A stretch of 64,000 nt of DNA from Rhizoclosmatium globosum (lineage: Eukaryota > Chytridiomycota > Chytridiomycetes > Chytridiales > Chytriomycetaceae). Positions 100 to 39,763 of the stretch are shown here, piece by piece. The notes under the pieces were generated by a model that saw only the letters and a list, made by a program, of their open reading frames with translations, was not told where the DNA came from and ran no database searches. Both the position numbers and the translations under genes were made by a program. The stretch is taken from the NCBI GenBank assembly GCA_002104985.1, contig MCGO01000098.1, positions 85,233 through 149,232 of the forward strand, written 5' to 3'. Position 1 is the stretch's first letter. Each line of letters starts with the position of its first letter.

Positions 100-1521
100 A
101 TGCATTCGACTTGTTTCTCGCTTGACACGTCTTCAGCATGCACAGACTTGCATATGCAGAGTGAGTACATTACATCTAGTGCGAGAGTGTGAATGCTGAC
201 CTGATGCCAATCTTGACAGGTGTATTGACATCTCCCCGGTTTCCAAACCTCGCCGCTTTCGACTCTTTCATTCGCGACTCTTCAGATAACTCAACACGCT
301 TCACAAACACGGTCCAAGACACCTACGAATGCCCAGGATTCGCTGGCCACAATATTCGATTCCACCAGTCACTTCTCTGCCACTTCTTTGTCAGCTACTC
401 CATCCCTCACTGCCCCGCTTCCAAGATTCCTTACAAACCCCTCTGTCAAAGCTCGTGTCTCAGTCACATTGATTCCGTCGTTTCGCTCTTCAAAGATCCT
501 CTCATCTGTACACAAACACCCTCTGCATCATCCAACCGCGCCCGAATCCTCTTTGCAAGTTCAACGACAAGCAACAACTATCCAACACAGATTTATTGTA
601 CGACGCATGTCTTACAACCTTGTCATCCAACGACGCGTCCAAATGCGTTCTTGGAACCGCTTGGGACCTCAAACACGCTGGATTCTTGGAGTCCACTGAT
701 GCGATACGGTTTTGTAATGACACTGCGAGATTAGACCCCACGGACGTCATGTTGTGTAAAGATCTGAGTTCTGACGATGTTGCTCCTGTTCATCATCCAC
801 TCGATAACCTAACGCGGGACCAAAAACTCGCGCTTATTCGTCCAGCTCGGGACTTGCCATGGATCGTGTCGGTATTGTGTGGGGTGTGATGGTGCTGGGC
901 AGTTTAGTTTGGATTGGATTGGTAAAGTGTAAGAACTGGGAATCGGAGGCGACAATTGCCGTGCAACCCATTGCTGGGGTAGTTGTTGAAAAGTTTCCGA
1001 AGGGTGATGGTATTCAGCGTGTTGGAACGATTGCAAAAGGACGCGCAACATTGAGACGGCAGAATACAATGGCGAAGCAAAGCAATTCGAGAAAAAGTAT
1101 TTTCGATAGTGTTTTTGGGGTTGTTGGATGGAAAGGGAAAGTTGGGAATATGGGGCGTGGTTTGGAAGAGGTTGATAAGAATGAGGAGCGGTACGATTAT
1201 GGCGCACCTGTGATGGAAATTGAGGAAATCAGCGAGTTTGATGATGGTGAGGGAGATTTTAATGATGAGATGGACTTGTTTCAGAGAATGCAAGTCCTTG
1301 CGCCGTACTTTCCTGAGAAATCTGATGAGCTTTCGCTTGTTGTGGGTGAAATCGTCATTATTCTTGAAACTTTTGATGATGGTTGGGTATCTGCGAGAAA
1401 GGAATCCAATGGTTGTGTAGGCATTGCTCCGCTTCCCTGTTTGGGTTCTCTTGCGAACTCAAAATTCATGAGCTTGTACTCAGGGTTCACAACTTCTCCG
1501 CACATCTCTTCAATTCGTTGA
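100..1521 (+). CDS. SH3-domain membrane protein with Cys-rich ectodomain (5' end probably upstream)
   Basis: The C-terminus (about 1288-1440) reads as an SH3 domain, with ALxPYFPEKSDELSL at the start and DDGWVSAR around the conserved Trp. A hydrophobic stretch at about 862-924 (IVWGVMVLGSLVWIGLV) is the likely membrane segment. Before it lies a Cys-rich region (ECPGF, SLLCHFF, HCPASK, PLCQSSC, CKFND, YDACLTT), as in fungal SH3 proteins that sit in the plasma membrane with the SH3 domain in the cytosol. Best splice model: intron 161-219 (GTGAGT...CAG, phase 1) and intron 754-845 (GTGTAA...CAG with branch-like CCTAAC). One base appears to be missing near 540; with it added the length is divisible by three. 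No signal peptide is visible after the ATG at 100, so an upstream exon outside the window probably supplies it. The ligand is unknown. The architecture is well supported and the exact exons less so. Confidence 0.7.
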
Positions 1522-1579
1522 TACATGTTTTTACTTTTCTTTAACTATTGCTTAAATGTATGGAATACAATCTACTCCT

Positions 1580-4104
1580 TCAAACACCCTCTTTCTTTGA
1601 AATCTGACCCAACGGCCATGCCGATTTAAACTTTTCCACAATAGATTGCAGTAAAGAATACGATCCTTGTTGATGTATGAAAATAATTCGACACCCTCCA
1701 CTTGTTTCAGTTGAAGTTCTCACCTCCATCTTAAACTTGACTGTTTGTGGAGTTGATGCTTTTTGAACGTTTACTAAAGTCCCAGCTGGAGAAACTGCAC
1801 TCTCAGGTCCTTTGAGAGAAAGCGATATTTTGCGTGTGAAGTTAGCAACGAAATTGTTGTGGGATGGAGAAACGGGCACGATTTGTTCGTTTTGGCTGTC
1901 ATATTTACATTTCCAGCTCCCAAAGTTATCTGTTTGGTGTTTTACATGAAGATCCTGCATATGGAGGGTTTTAATTTGAAGGCTAACTCTTGCAAGGTCT
2001 TACATTTAACCGCAATAGAGCGGCTTCAGCTGTGGGCAAGAAGTCGTTCGTTGAAATCAAGCTTATTTCTGGTGGAGTATATTGAAATCGTTTGAACCAT
2101 CTCTTCTTGGGAGGTGTCACAGTTGGTGTTCCATCGTCATAAAGACTAGCCTTCCTACGTGCAGTAGGACTCTCTGATTCCGGAGGGGTTGGTTTTCTTT
2201 CGAGTTTGACTGGATCACTTGTTGGTGTTTTTAAAATAGGAATAGGTTTTGCTGGTGTTGTGGCGATTTCAATTCCTCCTGAAACACTCTTCATCTTTCC
2301 TGCTTGACCTGATGGTCGTCTGAAGTTAAGAGTTTCTCCAAGTGCGTTCATGGATACACCAAGAGGACTATGTGGCCTTCCATTACTTTCGGGGGGTAAG
2401 CTGTTGGTTTTGCAGATAGTTTTGCAGATGAATAAGATGGCAAATCATCGAGTTTCTCAGGTTGATTCCCTGACTCCGCCAAAGAATCATTTGAGCTTGA
2501 CGAAGTCCGACGAACCAAATTCAATTCGCTTTTATAGATATCGAGTCGCGACATTGATGGAGAACAAGGGTTCCACTGTCACCACTATCCAGCGAAGCCA
2601 TCGACATGGAGCCTATCCGTCGTTTTGGGCCACCAGCAACGTCCCATGCTGAGAAATTCTCGGAACCATAATTTTCAAATGATTCCCATTTCCTGCGACA
2701 CAAGAGATTGTAAAAGACCTTTTCCATATTCTTTTCAGGTGACAACAGTGCTTGAATCAGCCCCTTTTCGTTTCCTGTCCATCCAAGAAATCCAAGTGAA
2801 CTGACTACATCCAAGTCAAGTGAATCGGGGTCGTTTATTCCTGTAATCAAAGGCCTGAATTTCGATATTTCCGACTTATCCGCATTCTCATTTATGTGGT
2901 CTATAACGTCATCAGATAAATACTTGAAAGATTCAGGGTTTCTTGGTTGTGCGCGGTAAACCACCTGTGCTGAAAAACGGCATTCATGCTTATTCTGTCT
3001 TCTGGATCCACAACGAGCATTTTTGTGATCAAATCGCGTGCGTCAGGGCTCACGTAGTCAGGAATCACGTATGCTCCAACTTTCACCTTAGAACTCATGC
3101 AATAAGCACCTCGATTATCATGAGCAATCACATCTTACCTTACTCAAAAGTCTTCGTATATTTTCGTCATCAAACGGTAGGTTTCCAGTCAAGAGAGCGA
3201 ATAGGATGATTCCACAACTCCATACGTCAGCGGGAGCCCCATCATACTTTATACCTCGAATAATCTCAGGGCTTGCATAGTGCGGACTCCCGCAAGATGT
3301 TTCCAGCATCTTTCCGGTCACTTGGAGGCTCGCCATTCCAAAGTCCGCAACCTTCACAGTCATGTCCTTGCTGAGGAGGAGATTCTCGGGTTTGAGGTCT
3401 CTGTGACTGTTAACTGAATTAGTTGAATAAAATAGCATTGATATTCATACCAAATAAGATGTCGATGGCAGAAGTCAACGGCGAATGTGATTTGTTGAAA
3501 AAAGTCCAGAGCTTCGTTCTCAGGCAACCTGCCTCTGGATACAAGATAATCGAACAACTCTCCTCCTTCAATATGCTCAAGAATCAAATACCTGGAAGAA
3601 GTTTCAGTAAATGGTCGCAAAAATTGCCATTTAGACTTACAGTTCCTTATCAGTTTCGTAAACATCATACAATTGCATCACATTAGGATGTTGAATCAAT
3701 TTCATGATTGTGATTTCGCGTTCCACTTTTTCGTTCAGCTTATTGTTGACCTTCGTTTCTGTTTGACTGTCTGACGCGACGCTTTCTGTGGAGCTGCTTG
3801 CTAGGGATTCTTTTGGAATGATCTTGATGGCTACTTTCTGACCGGTTTCTAAATGTGTTCCTAGTTTGACACGTCCTGGGTCGAAGTGTCAAGGTGTCAA
3901 TATGTGTTAAGGTTGGATATTAGTGTTACCTGTGCTGCCCACTCCCAAAGTTTTGCCAAGAGCATAAGGGCCTATTCTTGGACCGTTGTCGCGAGCCAGT
4001 CTTGATGATATTTTATGACTTAAGAGCTCAGTTGACCCTTTCGAAGACGGGCGTCGGGGGACTTGGGGAGACCTTGAAGCAGGGTCAACCGATACTGGAA
4101 GCAT
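1580..4104 (-). CDS. BRSK/SAD-like (Hsl1/Gin4-type) Ser/Thr protein kinase
   Basis: A CAMK-group kinase. It has the Gly loop [22 protein letters not shown] with the ATP-binding Lys, catalytic loop [15 protein letters not shown] in VADFGMASL, a T-loop ending [11 protein letters not shown], and [13 protein letters not shown]. After the kinase come a mid region with [12 protein letters not shown] and a C-terminal segment (VKFKMEVRT..., [11 protein letters not shown]) that resembles the KA1-like tail of BRSK and Gin4 kinases. These kinases act in cell polarity and cell-cycle morphogenesis (family knowledge). Five introns fit by phase: 3876-3929, 3592-3640, 3407-3450, 3087-3138 and 1955-2003. Three single-base losses are needed, near 2953, near 2573 and in the G6 run at 2391-2396; with them the CDS is 759 codons. 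It is divergent from no gene and lies downstream of RPA135 on the same strand. Confidence 0.85.
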
Positions 4105-29271: not shown

Positions 29272-32200
29272 ATGACCAGCAACTACTCTGGTAAGCCACT
29301 TTCATTGTTGGACGTGTTCTTTCTGGCGTCTGAACTTGTAAACACTAACCAACTCTCTCACAACAGCCCCATTCCAAAAGTCAAAGTACCTTTCCCTTGT
29401 ACTTGATACTATGGATAGTACAGAGGCAAATCAAATTGAAAGCTTCTCGCCATCTGAAGCTCCGCAGCCGGTAGATGCCTTCCAGTCCCAGACTCAGCAA
29501 TTACAGGCATCGGACACGTTCTTAAATGGAACCACTTATTCCAATCCATCTTATCCTTCTAAGACCTCATTTTCATCTGCATCTGGCTTGTATAATACTC
29601 TTGATGTTGATAGTTGTTTCATGTCTGAACCTGGAGGTTACACTGCATTGGGACTACAAAAGCGGAAATATGAACATGATTCAACAGCCTGTGACCCCAG
29701 ACCGTCCAATAGACCAAGAATTGCTCCCGACTCTTCGGCATTGGAGTATGTTCGAACAGATGATACTAGTGTCAAAGAATTCGGATTAGAGCGGGCCGGC
29801 ACCTTTGAATCATCTACTACTCTTGTTGATATTGGATTTTTATTGAATGGAGGAGGAGAAGAGATCTGCACTATGAGTTCAAAGGTGGCGATTGAACCGA
29901 TTGATAACGCACGTCATACAAATGAAGGGACTAAAACCAGTAAGTTTCGGGCGAATTAAGTAATATTTTATTACAACCAGACTGATCACATATCATTAGC
30001 TGCTCTTGTGTCCAAGTCGCAATCAAAGATTACGAGCCACAAGAACTCAACCCATATTATTACTACTCAACCCATACCAAACTCTGTATCCTCTCAAATT
30101 GTAACGTTGACGCCCGGTGAATCACCTCGAAAGGAACTTGAAGGCGTCAATCGATCTGACAAACCTGAAACAACATTGCTGAACCGCACCCCAAGTTTGA
30201 GCCCAACTTGCCCTTCCGAAGACGAAGTTTTGTCGTCGTGTCGATGTAAGGGATTCAAGTTTATCGTTGAGCAAATGATTTGACAAATTGGCTTTAGCAA
30301 AATCACCTACTGTAGATCCGCCACCGAACCCATCGAAAACAGAGTTTAACTCAGTGGCCACCGAAAACTATAAATCCATATCAGCTGATATTCAACCATA
30401 TACCCAACCAACTATTAGCCACCAGCAACTTAATCAGCAGTCCGAAACCAGATTTATAAGCTTCGAAGGTCTCGATGACTGCGATTCCGTCCAACTAACT
30501 GCTTCCGAATTGGGTGACGATGATGTACCACCCTCTCCTCCGCCAACTCAACCCCATACCCCTTTCCAATCACTTCAGCATCACTTCATACAACCACCCA
30601 TCACACTCTCAACAACCCAATTCTCTCCGCCAACTTCCCGCTTCCTCCACTCCCGCGAACTGCGCATTCTCATCAAGAACTTGGCGACACCGAAACCAGT
30701 CCTCGCATTCTTATACTCCGAAACCCCAGGGAAAACCACAACCCTCCAACAATACATCAACCATGATCCTGACGTCATTGCAAAGCGGTATCAACACGTT
30801 CTTTGGCTCTCATGCCTGAATCTGGTTACCATCACAACAAGTCTACGTGGTATTCTTCGACGCGTTGGTGTTCGAGGTGATATTGACAATGATGGAGAAG
30901 AAGCTCTTTGTGAAAAGTTCTGGGGATGGATGAAGGCTGCTACCAATACGCGGTACCTGCTAGTTGTCGATGGAGTTGAGAACGTTCAAGTTCTTGAATC
31001 GTTGTTTCGAGGTGTAAATCGGTTGACGGGACATGTTATTGTGACAATGAGGGGTAAAGAAGGAGTGGAAGGGTTCATGCGTAAGAGCGGAGCGCATTCT
31101 TTGCTTATACCTATGGGTGGAATTGTCGAAGCGGATCTGCATGAGTTCTTTTTGAGAAGTAGAGGTGGGAAGGGGGTGAAGAATGATGTTGATTTCTCGG
31201 CCGTGAATCATATTGTGGAAGAAGTTGAGGGAGACGCGTTGTATGCTGCATTAGTTAAATCTTATTTGGTCTCGGAAGACTGCAGTTGTGAAGTGTTGGT
31301 TGAAAGGATGTTGGTGGTCAAGGCGAAGTTGGAGGGATCACCAAATCAATGTCAAGGAACCGATAACCATCAGGTGAAGAAAGAGGATTCAACTGAAGAG
31401 GGAGATGAAGATGAGGAACCATTGTTGTATCTGACCTACCTTTTAATTGAGTCGATATTACGGCGTTATGGCAATCTGGGACTCGCAGCTGTTACCCTTC
31501 TCGAAATTATCGCGTTTACATCATCAACATCGCCGGTTTCTTGCTCCTCTCTTAAGCAACTTCTGGACCTTCATTCGTCAAACCAAACTATTATACACGC
31601 TCTCACACTGCTACACTCAAAGTCTCTTCTTCGTCTTCATCATGTCCCAGAAGGCCACGAAAACACGTACACAATCTCCCATCCCATTCTGCATGAGACA
31701 ATTCTTAAGCTTCAACCAAAAACTCCACTCTACAACATTGCCTCATTAATGCACCACACTCTTCGCGAACAAACCATCCGTGCGAAGACCCTCCACGACA
31801 GCCTTCAAATCGCAGTCCAATACACATCATCCTGCCAAAACCTATGCACCCATTTCTCCACAACCCACAAAAAGCCATCTACACCCCCAACATACCTCCA
31901 CGATATTCAAAAAACCCTCAAAACCCTCGCAACAACATTATACACGCAACACCAACCCCGCGAGTCCCTTGCATCCCTCAAAACCCTGACTTCCCTCCTC
32001 CTCCTCCATCCATCCGAAAACGCCTCCGAAATCGCAACAACAATGGACTTGACAGCATTCCTCGCCCTCGAATTCACACGCACAAAGGTATCACCACCAC
32101 AGACCCTGTTCTCAACGTTACGCACGAACGGGACATACAGTCCACATGAAGTTGCATGTGACGCGCTTTCGAGGAACGTGGTTTATTTGGCGGGATTACC

Positions 32201-32983
32201 TGCCTCTATGCACCAAGTGAATTTGTATATGGCGTTGACGTTGACACACGTAGCACGGGCGAGGTATCTTTGTACGCTTCCGCAGAACACGACGGTTGCG
32301 AGGACTGCAACGGGTGATCAGGCGCGGCTTGCGAAGGAACATGCTTTGTGTCTTGTTAGTGCTGTTTGTCATACCGTTGGGACGTGGAATCATGTGTTGG
32401 TTGTTTCTGCGTTGCAGGTGCTTGTAGTTGCGGCGTTGGTGGATGGAGATCAAGTTCGGCCGTGGGATTCGGTTAAGCGCGTTTTTGCGGTGTTGAAGGA
32501 GGTTTGGGGTGTTGATGATGGGAATTGTTTTGAGGTTGGAGGGGAAGGGGAGGTGGATGAAGGATGGAATGGGAATGAAGTGTTGGGGGAGTGGTTTCGG
32601 ATGGGACGGGATGGGTTGTTGAATGGTGTTGTGAGCGAGGAGAAGGTTGACTTCGGGCGGGAATGGGCAAAACGGGTTTGTCGGAGGCTCTTGTTAGGTG
32701 CGGAAGAAGTTGCGAAAGGGTCTGTTGGGAGGTGGTTGGGTGCAAATGTAAGATTTATCAAGGTATGTGTTAATTTGGCATCTCAGCGTTTGATGCTCAA
32801 CCATAAATCCCACAGGTTGTAGAAAAGCAAAAGCCAAGGATAGTATTCAATCCTACTTCCGTTCCTGTCATTGTACCTGCCGCAAGTAAATCAACACGGT
32901 CACAGAGGTTAGAGCAAGCTCGGATTGTGGAGCGCGCTGTTGATTTTTCAGATGTTTCGGATGTATCTTCAGACTCGGAATAA
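29272..32983 (+). CDS. NB-ARC-type STAND NTPase with disordered N-terminus (fungal NLR-like)
   Basis: Spliced from introns 29291-29366, 29940-29999, 30246-30297 and 32763-32815 to 1156 codons, all phases consistent. Residues 1 to about 330 are disordered, with an NLS-like basic pair (QKRKYEHD ... RPSNRPRIA). An NB-ARC-like NTPase follows: a degenerate P-loop YSETPGKTTTLQQYI, Walker B RYLLVVDGVENV, and a sensor strand GHVIVTMR. Next is a winged-helix-like part with LLHSKSLLRLHH and ISHPILHETI, the place of an MHD-type motif. A helical region without clear repeats completes the protein. STAND proteins act as switch ATPases, and many sense non-self or drive heterokaryon incompatibility (family knowledge). 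The first Gly of the P-loop is replaced. No effector domain is recognised at either end. Confidence 0.75.
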
Positions 32984-34198: not shown

Positions 34199-34228
34199 CT
34201 TGTACAATAAACTCTTGATCAAATTCAA

Positions 34229-35822
34229 ATGGCAACGACCGAGTGGGCCTGTGTTGCCTGCACCTTCCTCAATGCCGCGTCTCTTGATTCATGTGAAATC
34301 TGTCTTACTCCCAAACCAACGACCAAGACCAAGGCCGAGGCAGCGACCGCGTCAAATCCAAATCCAACTCGAGCGCAACTTGAAGCTGAGCGACTCGCGC
34401 GGCTTTCGGCGAAACGGCCCCGCGAAGACGACTCAACAAATGTCAATGAGAAGAAACAACGTGTTTCTGCGGGTGTTCCATCGACCACGAAAACAACAAC
34501 ACTATCAACTCAATCAACTCACACAAAACAACAACACCAGATCCGCCTCACAAACTGTGTCCAACATAAAACAAATCAATCATCGTCAAACACTCAACGA
34601 ATGCCCTCGATCTCTCTCATCCACCTAACTCAACCTCTCTCCCTCCGCAAAGCCTTCCTCTCAGCCTTCCAATTCGACCTAAACTGGATCGCTTCAACAC
34701 TGCCTCCAAACATCCCCGTCTGCCTCGCTTTCCACAGCCCATCTCCAACTCCACCTCGCATCCAAAAGAACATTTGCATCGTATTTCCGAAACTGAATTC
34801 AACAACGTATGCGACGATGCATATTAAACTGTGTGTCTTGTACTTTGATGGATTCGTGAGGGTTGTTGTTTCCAGTGCGAATTTGGTTCAATATGATTGG
34901 GAGGAATTGGAGAATATCGTTTGGTATCAGGATTTTCCAAGGAAGGAGGGTGGGAAGCGGTTAGATGGGAGTTCATTAGAGGTACTTTGTTGCTGTCTCC
35001 ATTCATGGTGCGTATTCTCTAATTTCCCTTTTCCTACCATAGACTCCAAACATCCCGTCTGATGAAGATGAACTGTCCTTAGGCGACGCCTTCAAATCTG
35101 ATCTAAAGCAGTTACTCGTGGATATGGAATCTCAATCTTGGGTCTACAACGACTTGGACGCGTTCGACTTCTCATTCTGCAGAGCACGTCTCGTCATCTC
35201 CAAACCAGGAAAACATTCCAACGACAACGCATTCAAATACGGACTCGGCCGTCTCTCCTCTATCGTGCATGAAATCAATGGGAACAAGGCTGTCACGGAA
35301 CCTGTTTCTCTTTGGTACCAGACTTCATCGCTGGGCTCTATTTCCCAGCCCTTTTTAACGTCGCTTGAATCTGCGTGTCGTGGATCTTTGTTTCTACCTT
35401 CCAAGACGAGTACAGTGTCGCCGTCCATGAATATAGTCTTTCCAACTATCGAAACTGTGAAGTCCTCTGCTCTTGGGATGAACGGAGCGGGGACGATTAC
35501 GTGGAGTGGAAGTTTGCATGCTAAATGCGAATACAAACATTTACTGCGTGATTCTGTGTCTCTAAGGAGTGGTGCGCTCTCTCATTGTAAAGTCATCCTC
35601 TGTCAAACAACTGCCAACGATGATATTAAGTGGTTTTATTGTGGGAGCCACAACATGACAATGAGTGCATGGGGAAAAACTGTGGAAACAAAGAAGGAAA
35701 AGAGAGTGGAGATTTCGAATTGGGAGTTGGGTGTTGTAGTTGAGGAAGGAGCTGTTGTTCCATTCCAAACAATGGATGTGAGAAGTCATGGGAGTGGAGT
35801 TCGGGCAGCGCATACGAGTTGA
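34229..35822 (+). CDS. TDP1: Tyrosyl-DNA phosphodiesterase 1 with N-terminal RanBP2-type zinc finger
   Basis: Repairs stalled topoisomerase I-DNA adducts. The two HKN half-sites of this PLD-superfamily enzyme are visible: MHIKLCVLYFDGFVRVVVSSANL and SLHAKCEYK / WFYCGSHNMTMSAWG. NLVQYDWEELENIVWYQD is a family segment. The N-terminus TEWACVACTFLNAASLDSCEICL is a RanBP2 zinc finger (W-x-C-x2-C ... C-x2-C). Intron 34982-35042 (61 nt) gives 510 codons. The zinc finger may bind ubiquitin or nucleic acid (inference). Confidence 0.9.
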
Positions 35823-36192: not shown

Positions 36193-39100
36193 ATGCTCTC
36201 TCAATGGATGTCCCAAAGTCAACCAAGACAAGCTCCTCCCGAAACCCCACCTCCCGCACCCAGCAGTGTATTGAAAACAGTTATTTTCCCTGGTTTGTAA
36301 AAACCTTTACCGCACATACAAACGCTCTCCACCCTCATTCAAGAAATCTAAACTTATCAAAACGAATATGAAGATGACCTCCAAGTCCGTGTTCAAATAA
36401 TGCTTCGAAGCGGCGAAATCCTCAAAACAACAACGCTCAGTCACTTGGATGCGTCCGTTGAGCGGATTTCATGGCTAATCAACACATACCTCGCACAAGA
36501 GACAGACGGACAACTCGTTGGAGATCTTAGGGTTAGGGTTAGGGGGGATTCTTCACTGAAAACGCCTGTTGTCTGGTTGGAGGGCTCTCCCCACGGTCTT
36601 GGTCACCTGTGCCTCCCGCCGCTTTCAAAGACATTCAGGCAGACTGCTCATAGCGTAATCTCTTCAGATCATGCTCCTGCCGCCTTCTAGGCGCCTCGCT
36701 CTGTGTTCTGTGTATCTTGCGTACACCAACACTGCCCTTGTTGAACTCACACTTCTCCTACCGCCTACTGCAGCTGCAGGCAGCTTCAGATTATGATTTC
36801 GACTGCTTCTATTACAGTGGGCTTACTGCCAGAGCGCCTGGATCTGGCAGTAGTGTCCACTGTTCCAACTTCAACAACTTCAACACCTCAACAACCAGGG
36901 GCGCTCTACGCCCTTGAAACCGCTTTCATATCCACATTCTCCAACTTTGATCTACGCCTTAGCCCTCCACTGCCCCTCAGAGGGGTGGTGTTTTGGGTTT
37001 TCGCTTTTTCAAACTACACTCGCAGCTAACTCGCGACGCCTCGCGCGATTTACACGAAACTTTCACCAGTCATTCGAACGCATCAGATTTACCTACTGTA
37101 GAAAGGACAGCTTCGCGCGATGTCTCGATCATCCGCTAGCGCTGATTTTCTGAACTGCCTTCCCTATCACTTTCCACGCCCGTCTCCGCGTTTCTGAAGT
37201 CGAAATAATGTTTTAAAACGCTGGAAAAAGTTTGGAGTCATTTGGACATGCCTGGCCTGAGTTAGTCAGGCTGCCTTCAACAGCACCAACAACACCATCA
37301 CCAAATGCACCACCACCTTCTACAACCACAGCTACAGCCCATCTACTGATTTAAATCACTTTTAAATCATTATTCTCATCATTTGCACCACCCTTTCTAC
37401 CGCACATTCCTTCTACCGCTTAAACCTACTACAGCATCACGACCACGAATACGTCTGGGGAGAATGCAACGGAGCTTGAACCCTGCCCCAAATCGCGCCA
37501 ATGAAGTACTGGAATGAGCCAGGGCTTGGGAGGGCTTGCTTGTCGTATCGTGTGTCTCCGTCAATTATCACTCTTCTACTGCTCCAGCATCTCTCTACTA
37601 CAAGCTTCCGTGTGTGATATGCAGGCCTTTGAAGTACTGGTACCCGCCATAGGAATGAGGGGCTTCCGAAAATTGGCCTGGTACTGGGGCTAGCACTTGG
37701 TGTCAGTCTGGGTGAGATATTCTGCATCAGCTTCACGTCCATCTCCGATTATACACTCTGCACCTTTTCACTTATCCGCCATGACCTTTCGAGTCTGAGA
37801 GAACTCGTCAGCGAGCTGTCAGTCTGCACATATTCCCGCTTTCATTAATTTCATCATTTCAAGGGACTCTCAGGAGTGAGTGTGGTTCTAGGTATGAAAC
37901 TTTCCTCCCACTGGGAGGTTTTATGTACTGCCAAGTATCATGCTTCAAACACTCCAGCACACTTGTTGCAAGTCACAGCAGCAATTATCACATTGTACAA
38001 ACTGGACACCTGTATAATGGACGTGTCGGACCCTCGTTTCAGGCAGCAGACCTGGAAGCACCGATATGTCGAGGTGCCTTGCTCCGAGAGTGGATCAGCA
38101 AGGCTTAATAGGCGACGAGACCTACCTCCGGAGGATAACAGAATGGATCAGGACCGATAGCTTAAGCTTTACATTGTATACTTTATTATCTTGTGTGTGG
38201 AAGTTAGTATATAATAAACTCGCGCGTGAAACCGTTAGGGTTAGGGTTAGGACTTGAGCAGCAGATTGACAGTTTTGTGAAGGTGGCTGCACGTGGGGAT
38301 GGAGATGGTGTTGCGCGGTCTCTGTCGCTTGTTGCTGTTTATTGGAAGGGATATGAGCCAGTGTATGGATGGGAGGATTTTTCTGGAGCTTGCATGGAAT
38401 TCCTTGGGAAAACGTATAACGTTTCGATTCGCACAAAAGTGGGTACGATTCCTGCAATTGTTGGGTTGAGGGTCGGAGAAGGGTTTAATATTATTCATGA
38501 AGAGAGTGGAGAGCAGATTGACATTGATGATAATAATCCTCAGAGATTTGGAATGACGTTGCAGGAGTTGGGGTTGGAAAGTCGGGAGAGGTATATTTTG
38601 TCACCAATTTTGAGCGGTGGAGGCGGAATAGGCCATTCTTTTACCGCCTTTGTGGATGTTTCAAATGGGGGACCTTCCAAAATTGAGTTTGAGTTTGAGG
38701 CTCCAAGGTGGAGAGTTGTAAGCACAGGTCTTAACCTCGAAGGAGTGTGCACAAACAAATCTTGTAACGCATTTGGTGATCTCGTAATTGCTCCTCAAGG
38801 CCTTGGCGTGTTTGACTTGGAAATGGACGCTCATAGAGTACAATGCCCTGAATGTGACAAACGTGTTGTTCCCAAGGAATGTGGTTTCTATGATTGCGAG
38901 TATGCATTTACAGGTTTCAAAAGCGTTGATGGGAATCTTGTTGGACATTTGTGAGTTTAACAGTGTATTTTGGTGAAGGTTCTTTTTCTGAAGTAATTGA
39001 TAGGGCGCCATTTGTTAAAGCTGACAAGAGCACTTACACACGCTTCTCGGAATCGCAAAACGGTGTTGCAGAATGGGCGAAACTGATAATTCAGACACGT

Positions 39101-39763
39101 AGGGCCAGTTCGAGTACTGATTCCCCTCTTTGTGTGTACTGTGCAGCCATCATTTATAGCAACGGAAAGACTCTCAAATGTTGTGGAGCAGCCGTGCATA
39201 AGAAGTGTTTAAACCAAATCGAGAAATGCAATACATGTGAAGAAAAGAGTCCTGAGGAAGCTTGGCCGGTTTTCATCAGTTACGCATGGAAGAATTCAAA
39301 ATCTGCATGTCACAGAGAAGGCCTGGATATAGATGCTTGTGGTGTGAGTTCACTCATTTTGATTGCTAAGAATCTTCTGACCTTCTTTTTGAAACAGGCA
39401 TGCGACCCAAGGAAGATTTCAAGTAAATTGACTGAAAAGGGTTATTCGACGTGGTTGGACGTTGAAAGGATGCCACCAGCGAGCTCCCTCTACAAAAGCA
39501 TTTCAGAGGGGATTAATCAAGCAAAAATGGCGGTCGCCTTTGTTTCTGAAGAATATTGCAATTCTCGCAACTGCCTTGACGAACTCAAGTTTATTCGCAA
39601 TGCAGATATTCCTATTTTGTTTGTTGTGGTCGGCAAGAAGACTGCGTTTGATTGGAGAAAGTCGCAAGTTGGATTCATGTCTGGAGATTCGTTGTATATT
39701 GAGGCTAGAGGTTCTGAAGATGTTTTCGATAGAATTTTACAGACTGTGCGTGGAATTTTGTAA
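36193..39763 (+). CDS. Zinc-ribbon/RING-like/TIR-domain protein, coding exon split by a 1.7-kb segment
   Basis: The N-terminus comes from 36193-36292 and 36374-36528 (intron 36293-36373). A 1721-bp segment follows, and the frame resumes exactly at 38250. Next comes a module with CTNKSCNAF, CPECDKRV and CGFYDC (zinc ribbon-like), then a RING-like cluster CVYCAAII ... CCGAAVHKKCLNQIEKCNTC, then a TIR domain. The TIR has PVFISYAW, GYSTWLDVERM, AKMAVAFVSEEY, and NSRNCLDELKF, whose Glu matches the catalytic Glu of NAD-cleaving TIRs. Intron 39344-39397 (54 nt) is phase 0. One T seems to be missing near 38950 (GNLVGHF-VSLTVYFG). The product is 571 residues. It probably acts in stress or immune-like signalling, as an NADase or scaffold, with possible E3 activity (inference). 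Confidence 0.75.
36527..36547 (+). repeat. Interstitial telomere-type repeat, left copy
   Basis: Three TTAGGG units followed by a G-run lie inside the TIR gene coding frame, read there as LRVRVRG. It marks the left end of the 1.7-kb segment. TTAGGG is the telomere repeat of many fungi and animals. Confidence 0.9.
36529..38249. mobile_element. 1.7-kb non-coding segment flanked by TTAGGG repeats, interrupting the TIR gene
   Basis: Removing 36529-38249 restores the TIR reading frame exactly (GDL then GLEQQIDSF). Both ends carry about three TTAGGG units in the same orientation. The interior has no ORF of protein-like composition. It contains pyrimidine-rich stretches and small palindromes such as CTGCAGCTGCAG (36767-36778) and CCTCCCACTGGGAGG (37904-37918). 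Its right end is AT-rich with AATAATAAA-like signals (38185-38220). It could be a capture of telomeric or subtelomeric DNA, a retroelement aimed at telomere repeats, or a spliced intron: GT at 36517 and CAG at 38261 are also in phase. No transposase or reverse transcriptase is seen. Confidence 0.5.
38235..38251 (+). repeat. Interstitial telomere-type repeat, right copy
   Basis: TTAGGGTTAGGGTTAGG in the same orientation as the left copy, so the two form a 17-bp direct repeat around the 1.7-kb segment. The host exon continues with GACTTGAGCAG. Confidence 0.9.

Follow-up and report, generated by a model that had tools for sequence, protein, structure and literature searches.

We describe here a gene of the chytrid fungus Rhizoclosmatium globosum that joins a ubiquitin-like, zinc-module and RING-like front part to a TIR domain in one reading frame. 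It lies on the plus strand at positions 36193-39763 of a stretch of 64,000 nucleotides of contig MCGO01000098.1, called the window in its full length. The RING-like cluster and the first TIR strand share one unbroken exon (39004-39343), and the fusion is therefore independent of the splice model. Our favoured explanation, which we hold with about even confidence, is that the product is a TIR protein, probably cleaving NAD+, whose front part acts as a regulator. That R. globosum has TIR domains is known; the fusion of one to a RING-like module is what is added here. The genome searched comprises 56.9 Mb in 420 contigs; the window's contig is C419, and a second copy of the gene is found on contig C386.

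A RING-like cluster and a TIR domain in one frame

The initial annotation had read a TIR domain in this fungal sequence, and profile searches bear it out: the unspliced frame 38930-39760 scores above the curated cut-offs of both Pfam TIR families (TIR_2, PF13676, 55.9 bits versus 28, E 7.6e-15; TIR, PF01582, 31.7 bits versus 21.3, E 1.7e-7). The identity of the domain is near certain, being far beyond chance. A family profile of five aligned TIRs of the R. globosum genome, that of the window included, was searched against PDB chains and matched 26 distinct sequences at E <= 0.1. The top matches were Roq1 (2.9e-7), Cat1 (1.3e-6), RPV1 (1.6e-6) and AT1G72930 (2e-6), followed among others by RUN1 (9.9e-6) and AbTIR (4.3e-3), with Toll-like chains ranking lower (Toll-receptor-related 2, 3.9e-3; TLR2, 0.05). 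Additional TIR rows came neither from the genome contigs, where the one locus (L041) has no frame of at least 100 residues on the matching strand, nor from viral contigs, where one locus (L065) has its two frames of at least 80 residues on the opposite strand. Among 61 genomes around G001, TIR matches were weak and occurred in two.

Three plus-strand exons make up the main body of the gene. Joined by GT..AG introns, they give a single frame of 467 residues and 1.4 kb that holds neither stop nor frameshift. The first (38253-38950), supported by alignment with two Ubl-zinc-RING paralogues (Ubl, ubiquitin-like), encodes the end of an N-terminal domain, a divergent ubiquitin-like stretch and a six-cysteine zinc module. 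An intron at 38951-39003 (GTGAGT..TAG) follows, downstream of which the frame and the homology to the paralogues P0003 and P0004 resume. The second exon (39004-39343) carries a linker, the RING-like domain and, from 39263, the first TIR strand WPVFISYAW, while the last (39398-39763) holds the remainder of the TIR domain and the stop codon. The intervening intron (39344-39397, 54 nt) is open in frame and occupies a position common to other TIR genes of the genome; reading it as coding was rejected, since an intron interrupts three other TIR genes at the equivalent position. The order originally proposed, a Cys cluster followed by a RING-like C/H cluster and a TIR domain, is thus confirmed, with zinc-module Cys codons at 38748, 38763, 38844, 38853, 38880 and 38895 and RING-like ligand codons between 39131 and 39236.

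The front part aligns with P0003 and P0004, which are the exact exon-joined products of two R. globosum loci on contig C360, as well as with further public proteins, those of Anaeramoeba among them. Its N-terminal domain aligns with both paralogues, and the corresponding part of P0004 is modelled as strand-strand-helix-strand. The zinc Cys cluster had been recognized from the start; the divergent ubiquitin-like stretch before it (about 38355-38627, ending in GGGG), which aligns with the Ubl of the C360 paralogues, had been overlooked. A ubiquitin Pfam match was found neither in the window exon nor in P0001, a protein of R. hyalinum, whereas ubiquitin domains are clearly recognized in the C360 paralogues (PF00240, 1.1e-17 and 8.1e-18). 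A structural model of P0004 (predicted local distance difference test, pLDDT, 72.7; predicted template modelling score, pTM, 0.45; the RING part being less sure) matches ubiquitin structures with a best E of 5.8e-13. The six zinc-module Cys are kept in 10, 10, 10, 10, 9 and 9 of ten aligned sequences, window included. P0003, P0004, P0006 and P0007 resemble the window gene in Ubl, six-Cys module, linker and RING ligands, and the Anaeramoeba flamelloides proteins P0008 and P0010 in Ubl and zinc module. These relatives differ from it in that their ubiquitin domains match Pfam well. No TIR was found at E <= 0.1 in the six relatives scanned whole (P0006-P0010 and P0014), nor in the exon frames of P0003 and P0004.

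Eight ligands, in the order C C C C H C C C (C39131, C39140, C39179, C39182, H39197, C39206, C39227 and C39236), align with the RINGs of P0003 and P0004, and seven of the eight columns are invariant across the window gene, P0003, P0004, P0006 and P0007. No RING profile of Pfam exceeds its cut-off in the window exon frames. The weak zinc-type matches are C1_1 (E 0.049) and Prok-RING_1 (E 0.33, 11.4 bits versus a cut-off of 29.1), the latter being the only RING profile at E <= 1. Failure of the cut-off is shared by the C360 paralogues (22.3 and 22.9 bits), while the RING of P0007 passes it (34.1 versus 27.3 bits); the RINGs of RNF165 and Arkadia are among weak structural matches. In RING domains, the Ile before ligand 2 and the Pro after ligand 7 contact the E2 enzyme. 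All four relatives have Ile and Pro at these positions, where the window gene has Tyr and Asn, and its loop between ligands 6 and 7 is shortened. Judged from the alignment, the RING-like cluster does derive from a RING but is degenerate. Of the original RING claim, homology and metal ligands have thus held, and the suggested ubiquitin ligase has not: with no profile passing, two signature positions changed and the loop shortened, ligase activity appears unlikely.

The conserved glutamate and predicted NAD+ cleavage

TIR domains of animals, plants and bacteria act as NAD+-cleaving enzymes. The base of the TIR pocket carries a highly conserved Glu that is required for NADase activity, according to the available part of one report (PMC8813719). 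The Glu of NSRNCLDELKF, encoded at 39581-39583, had been placed at this catalytic position, and sequence alignment agrees: it stands opposite the Glu of the C-x-x-E motif in all five printed profile alignments (five different sequences, Roq1 accounting for two), and the CLDEL of RPP1 aligns with the fungal CLDEL. The residue is kept in 5/5 aligned TIRs of the R. globosum genome, window included. In profile match and C-x-x-E Glu, the domain thus resembles the TIRs of the plant TNLs (Roq1, RPP1, RUN1 and RPV1), AbTir and Cat1, with SARM1 presumably a further related NADase. The window TIR differs from these plant and bacterial enzymes in being fused to a Ubl/zinc/RING-like module, with no NB-ARC in the gene. 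NAD+ cleavage by this domain is plausible on the strength of the aligned residues.

The likely product may also be considered. The Trp that serves cyclisation in AbTir lies, we assume, four residues before the Glu. At that place the window TIR has Asn, and none of the other four aligned rows has Trp either (Asn in 4/5 rows altogether, Glu in one). Provided that the domain has any activity, the missing Trp would favour hydrolysis over cyclisation. Mutation of the conserved Trp in AbTir reduced but did not abolish the cyclic product and also lowered NADase activity, as stated in the accessible sections of that study (PMC10937652).

The 467-residue query gave 21 genome matches among the best candidates. 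Within that set, the zinc/RING part is matched on C419, C386 and at two places on C360, the TIR part on C419, C386, C46, C82, C90, C101, C361, C160, C112 and C55, and both parts together only on C419 and C386. Members of the same TIR subfamily (C46, C82/C90, C101 and C361) are 34-43% identical. An intron just before xCDPR is found in the window gene and its C386 copy, as well as in C82, C90 (almost identical to C82), C101 and C361; C46 lacks one at that place. The intron position common to C82/C90, C101 and C361 makes the TIR look like a travelling module. These other TIR genes have different neighbouring domains and no zinc/RING match at their loci. On C101 (L036 1284-2695), a TIR of the subfamily stands beside a C1 domain (PF00130, 2.7e-14) and a coiled coil recognized by eye; on C361 (L037 1275-3452), beside a protein kinase (1.3e-42) and Sel1-like repeats, also seen by eye; and on C46 (L033 1154-1744), beside a Sel1 match below cut-off (2.3e-6). 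For C101 and C361, we infer that the separate frames belong to one gene. Genome-wide, there are 92 exon-level TIR_2 matches, 86 of them over the cut-off with duplicate contigs counted; for a fungus this TIR expansion is large, and the sequences in it are quite diverse.

Taken together, we propose that a TIR module of this local subfamily became joined to the C-terminus of a Ubl/zinc/RING-like protein. Clustering of several TIR copies would then lead to NAD+ cleavage, yielding ADP-ribose rather than mainly cyclic products, possibly as part of a cell-death or stress response. A role as sensor, scaffold or restraint could fall to the front part, which is probably not an active ubiquitin ligase.

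An interrupted copy and the competing explanations

The initial annotation treated 36193-39763 as one clean gene. This it is not, as a 1.7-kb insert, missed earlier, splits the coding region between 36526 and 38252. The insert (36527-38251, plus strand) is bounded by direct TTAGGGTTAGGGTTAGG repeats at 36527-36543 and 38235-38251 and is absent from both C386 and P0001. Its DNA has eight genome matches, the window copy included, of which two on C360 are halves of one long copy (G000:C360 319317-330490) flanking 9.4 kb with RVT_1 (1.2e-18) and Exo_endo_phos (8.1e-9). We therefore read the insert as an internally deleted non-LTR (long terminal repeat) retroelement that keeps about 0.9 kb of one end and 0.8 kb of the other and replaces about 50 gene bases; at this site, C386 has a different sequence of about 50 bases. 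R. hyalinum P0001 and P0014 have matching residues across the site. As a dispersed repeat, the insert was rejected as host coding sequence, and the whole of it may be removed by splicing. The ends of the element carry telomere-like TTAGGG repeats, which is curious for a dispersed element.

Upstream of the insert, the exons are tentative. Exon 2 (36374-36526, plus strand, left edge tentative) encodes the start of the N-terminal domain, DLQVRVQIML..., the residues with which P0001 also begins. A candidate first exon (36193-36292, plus strand) has an ATG open frame, MLSQWMSQ..., and a GT..AG join to 36374 that keeps one frame; among the protein records examined, none covers it.

In the compared stretches, about 5% of positions are substituted between the C386 copy and the window. 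One-base gaps number 40 in C386, 27 of them within single-base runs, versus four in the window, and some longer gaps occur on both sides. C386 is probably an allele or a recent duplicate with a poor-consensus stretch. At L030, about 1450-3250, C386 shows dozens of short deletions relative to the window, both within exons and between genes; such deletions are absent from exon 2 of the neighbouring Tdp1 gene, and the downstream gene has two (3 and 7 bases).

Several observations weigh against an active TIR NADase under control of its front part. The window copy is interrupted, and C386 has 35 frameshifting exon gaps (25 in the zinc exon, nine in the RING exon and one in the TIR exon). Amino-acid-changing codon differences between the two copies outnumber silent ones across the zinc and RING exons (16:11), unlike in Tdp1 exon 2, which argues against strong constraint on these exons unless sequence errors inflate the ratios. 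Structure prediction for the RING-TIR frame gave a model of low quality (pLDDT 49.8, pTM 0.32) that is nearly single-sequence for the TIR part; a TIR-like order of strands and helices is visible in it, and Foldseek with this model gave no PDB match at E <= 0.001. The Glu is hence aligned by sequence, and its geometry in the pocket only putative. Many TIRs signal without catalysis, and as the Trp change in AbTir also lowers NADase activity, the missing Trp may mean weak catalysis. Among annotated proteins, none of 89 candidate homologues of the TIR region reached E <= 0.001, and the whole-protein search gave two matches, neither covering the TIR; since a match in these searches must be of similar length and have five-residue words in common with the query, relatives may escape them. 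An alignment-based search returned 13 proteins, none with a TIR among the listed Pfam domains.

Some of these points would suit a TIR that mediates interaction without catalysis, as the TIRs of animal TLR adaptors do, in a scaffold recruiting other TIR proteins. Partners would abound, given the number of TIR_2 matches counted above, and the Asn at the place of the AbTir Trp and the weak structural model fit as well; we nevertheless regard a scaffold as somewhat unlikely, since the Glu is kept in all five subfamily members and the profile matches TIRs of plants and bacteria best (Roq1, Cat1), Toll-like chains ranking lower. A bifunctional chain, in which ubiquitin-ligase activity of the RING type and NADase activity of the TIR control each other, seems to us improbable: the only zinc-type matches are the two weak ones to C1_1 and Prok-RING_1, and the Tyr/Asn replacements and the shortened loop speak against the ligase half.

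The gene could also be decaying or dead, one copy killed by the retroelement and the other by frameshifts. Besides the insert and the 35 gaps, the ratios of changing to silent differences (7:5 in the zinc exon, 9:6 in the RING exon and 2:5 in the TIR exon, versus 8:25 in Tdp1 exon 2 and 5:10 in the downstream gene) are compatible with decay, as is the failure to find the RING-TIR protein model among annotated proteins. The intact 1.4 kb of exons after the insert argue otherwise, and so does the gap pattern in C386, where 33/35 exon gaps are one base long and over half of all one-base gaps fall in single-base runs; outside the TIR gene, the downstream gene has a single frameshifting gap and Tdp1 exon 2 is free of them. 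This pattern looks like poor consensus, which would also inflate the changing differences. Moreover, R. hyalinum P0001, a partial protein without the TIR part, is 97% identical over 50% of the query. Overall, we find decay improbable.

Neighbouring genes and TIR domains of fungi

Upstream of the gene, the window encodes a tyrosyl-DNA phosphodiesterase (Tdp1; 34211-35822, plus strand; PF06087, 2.1e-17 and 2.2e-42), at whose start a RanBP-type zinc finger is matched, short of its cut-off. Further upstream, about 3.4 kb from the TIR gene, lies an NB-ARC (NLR/STAND-like) frame of 847 residues (30279-32819, plus strand; PF00931, 5.6e-6, above cut-off). It is separate from the TIR gene, in whose scanned exon frames Pfam found neither NB-ARC nor NACHT.

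The view that TIR domains have been little studied in fungi stands, except that those of R. globosum are already in print. A 2026 atlas of eukaryotic TIRs, with few fungi in its source, found almost no fungal TIRs, all of them from R. globosum, and noted that a few had been reported earlier; in the portion of its text available, the R. globosum TIRs are mentioned and not studied (PMC13142454). The same portion describes Dictyostelium TirBCD, likewise TIRs of a eukaryotic microbe but derived from a relative of bacterial TIR-STING, and characterizes TirC as an NADase whose oligomerisation depends on the putative catalytic Glu (PMC13142454). Elsewhere, in partial texts, TIRs are stated to occur in fungi (PMC7075850), TIR-like N-termini are described in NLRs of Pezizomycotina, with TIRs in NLRs of Chytridiomycota cited (PMC9815663), and fungal HET domains are linked to TIR (PMC4986451, PMC12881547). 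Available passages on these remote relatives propose a role in cell death (PMC4986451, PMC9815663). The window gene differs from the HET/NLR systems, as its exon frames have no HET match in Pfam and its TIR_2 match lies outside an NLR. Among the open-licence matches listed, no RING-TIR fusion is named in titles or abstract openings.

On a wider and more speculative reading, which we consider rather unlikely, the protein would be a fungal receptor of innate-immunity-like type, in which the Ubl/zinc/RING-like module senses stress or an intruder and switches on the NAD-destroying TIR. It would belong to a set of TIR effectors, one TIR module having moved beside different sensors (C1, kinase, Sel1 and RING-like). 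Since such domains are rarely reported in fungi, the pairing of a TIR with ubiquitin-like and RING-like parts is of interest in itself, and the gene makes it possible to test directly if TIR-based cell death operates in early fungi and if it can be gated by ubiquitin-like signals.

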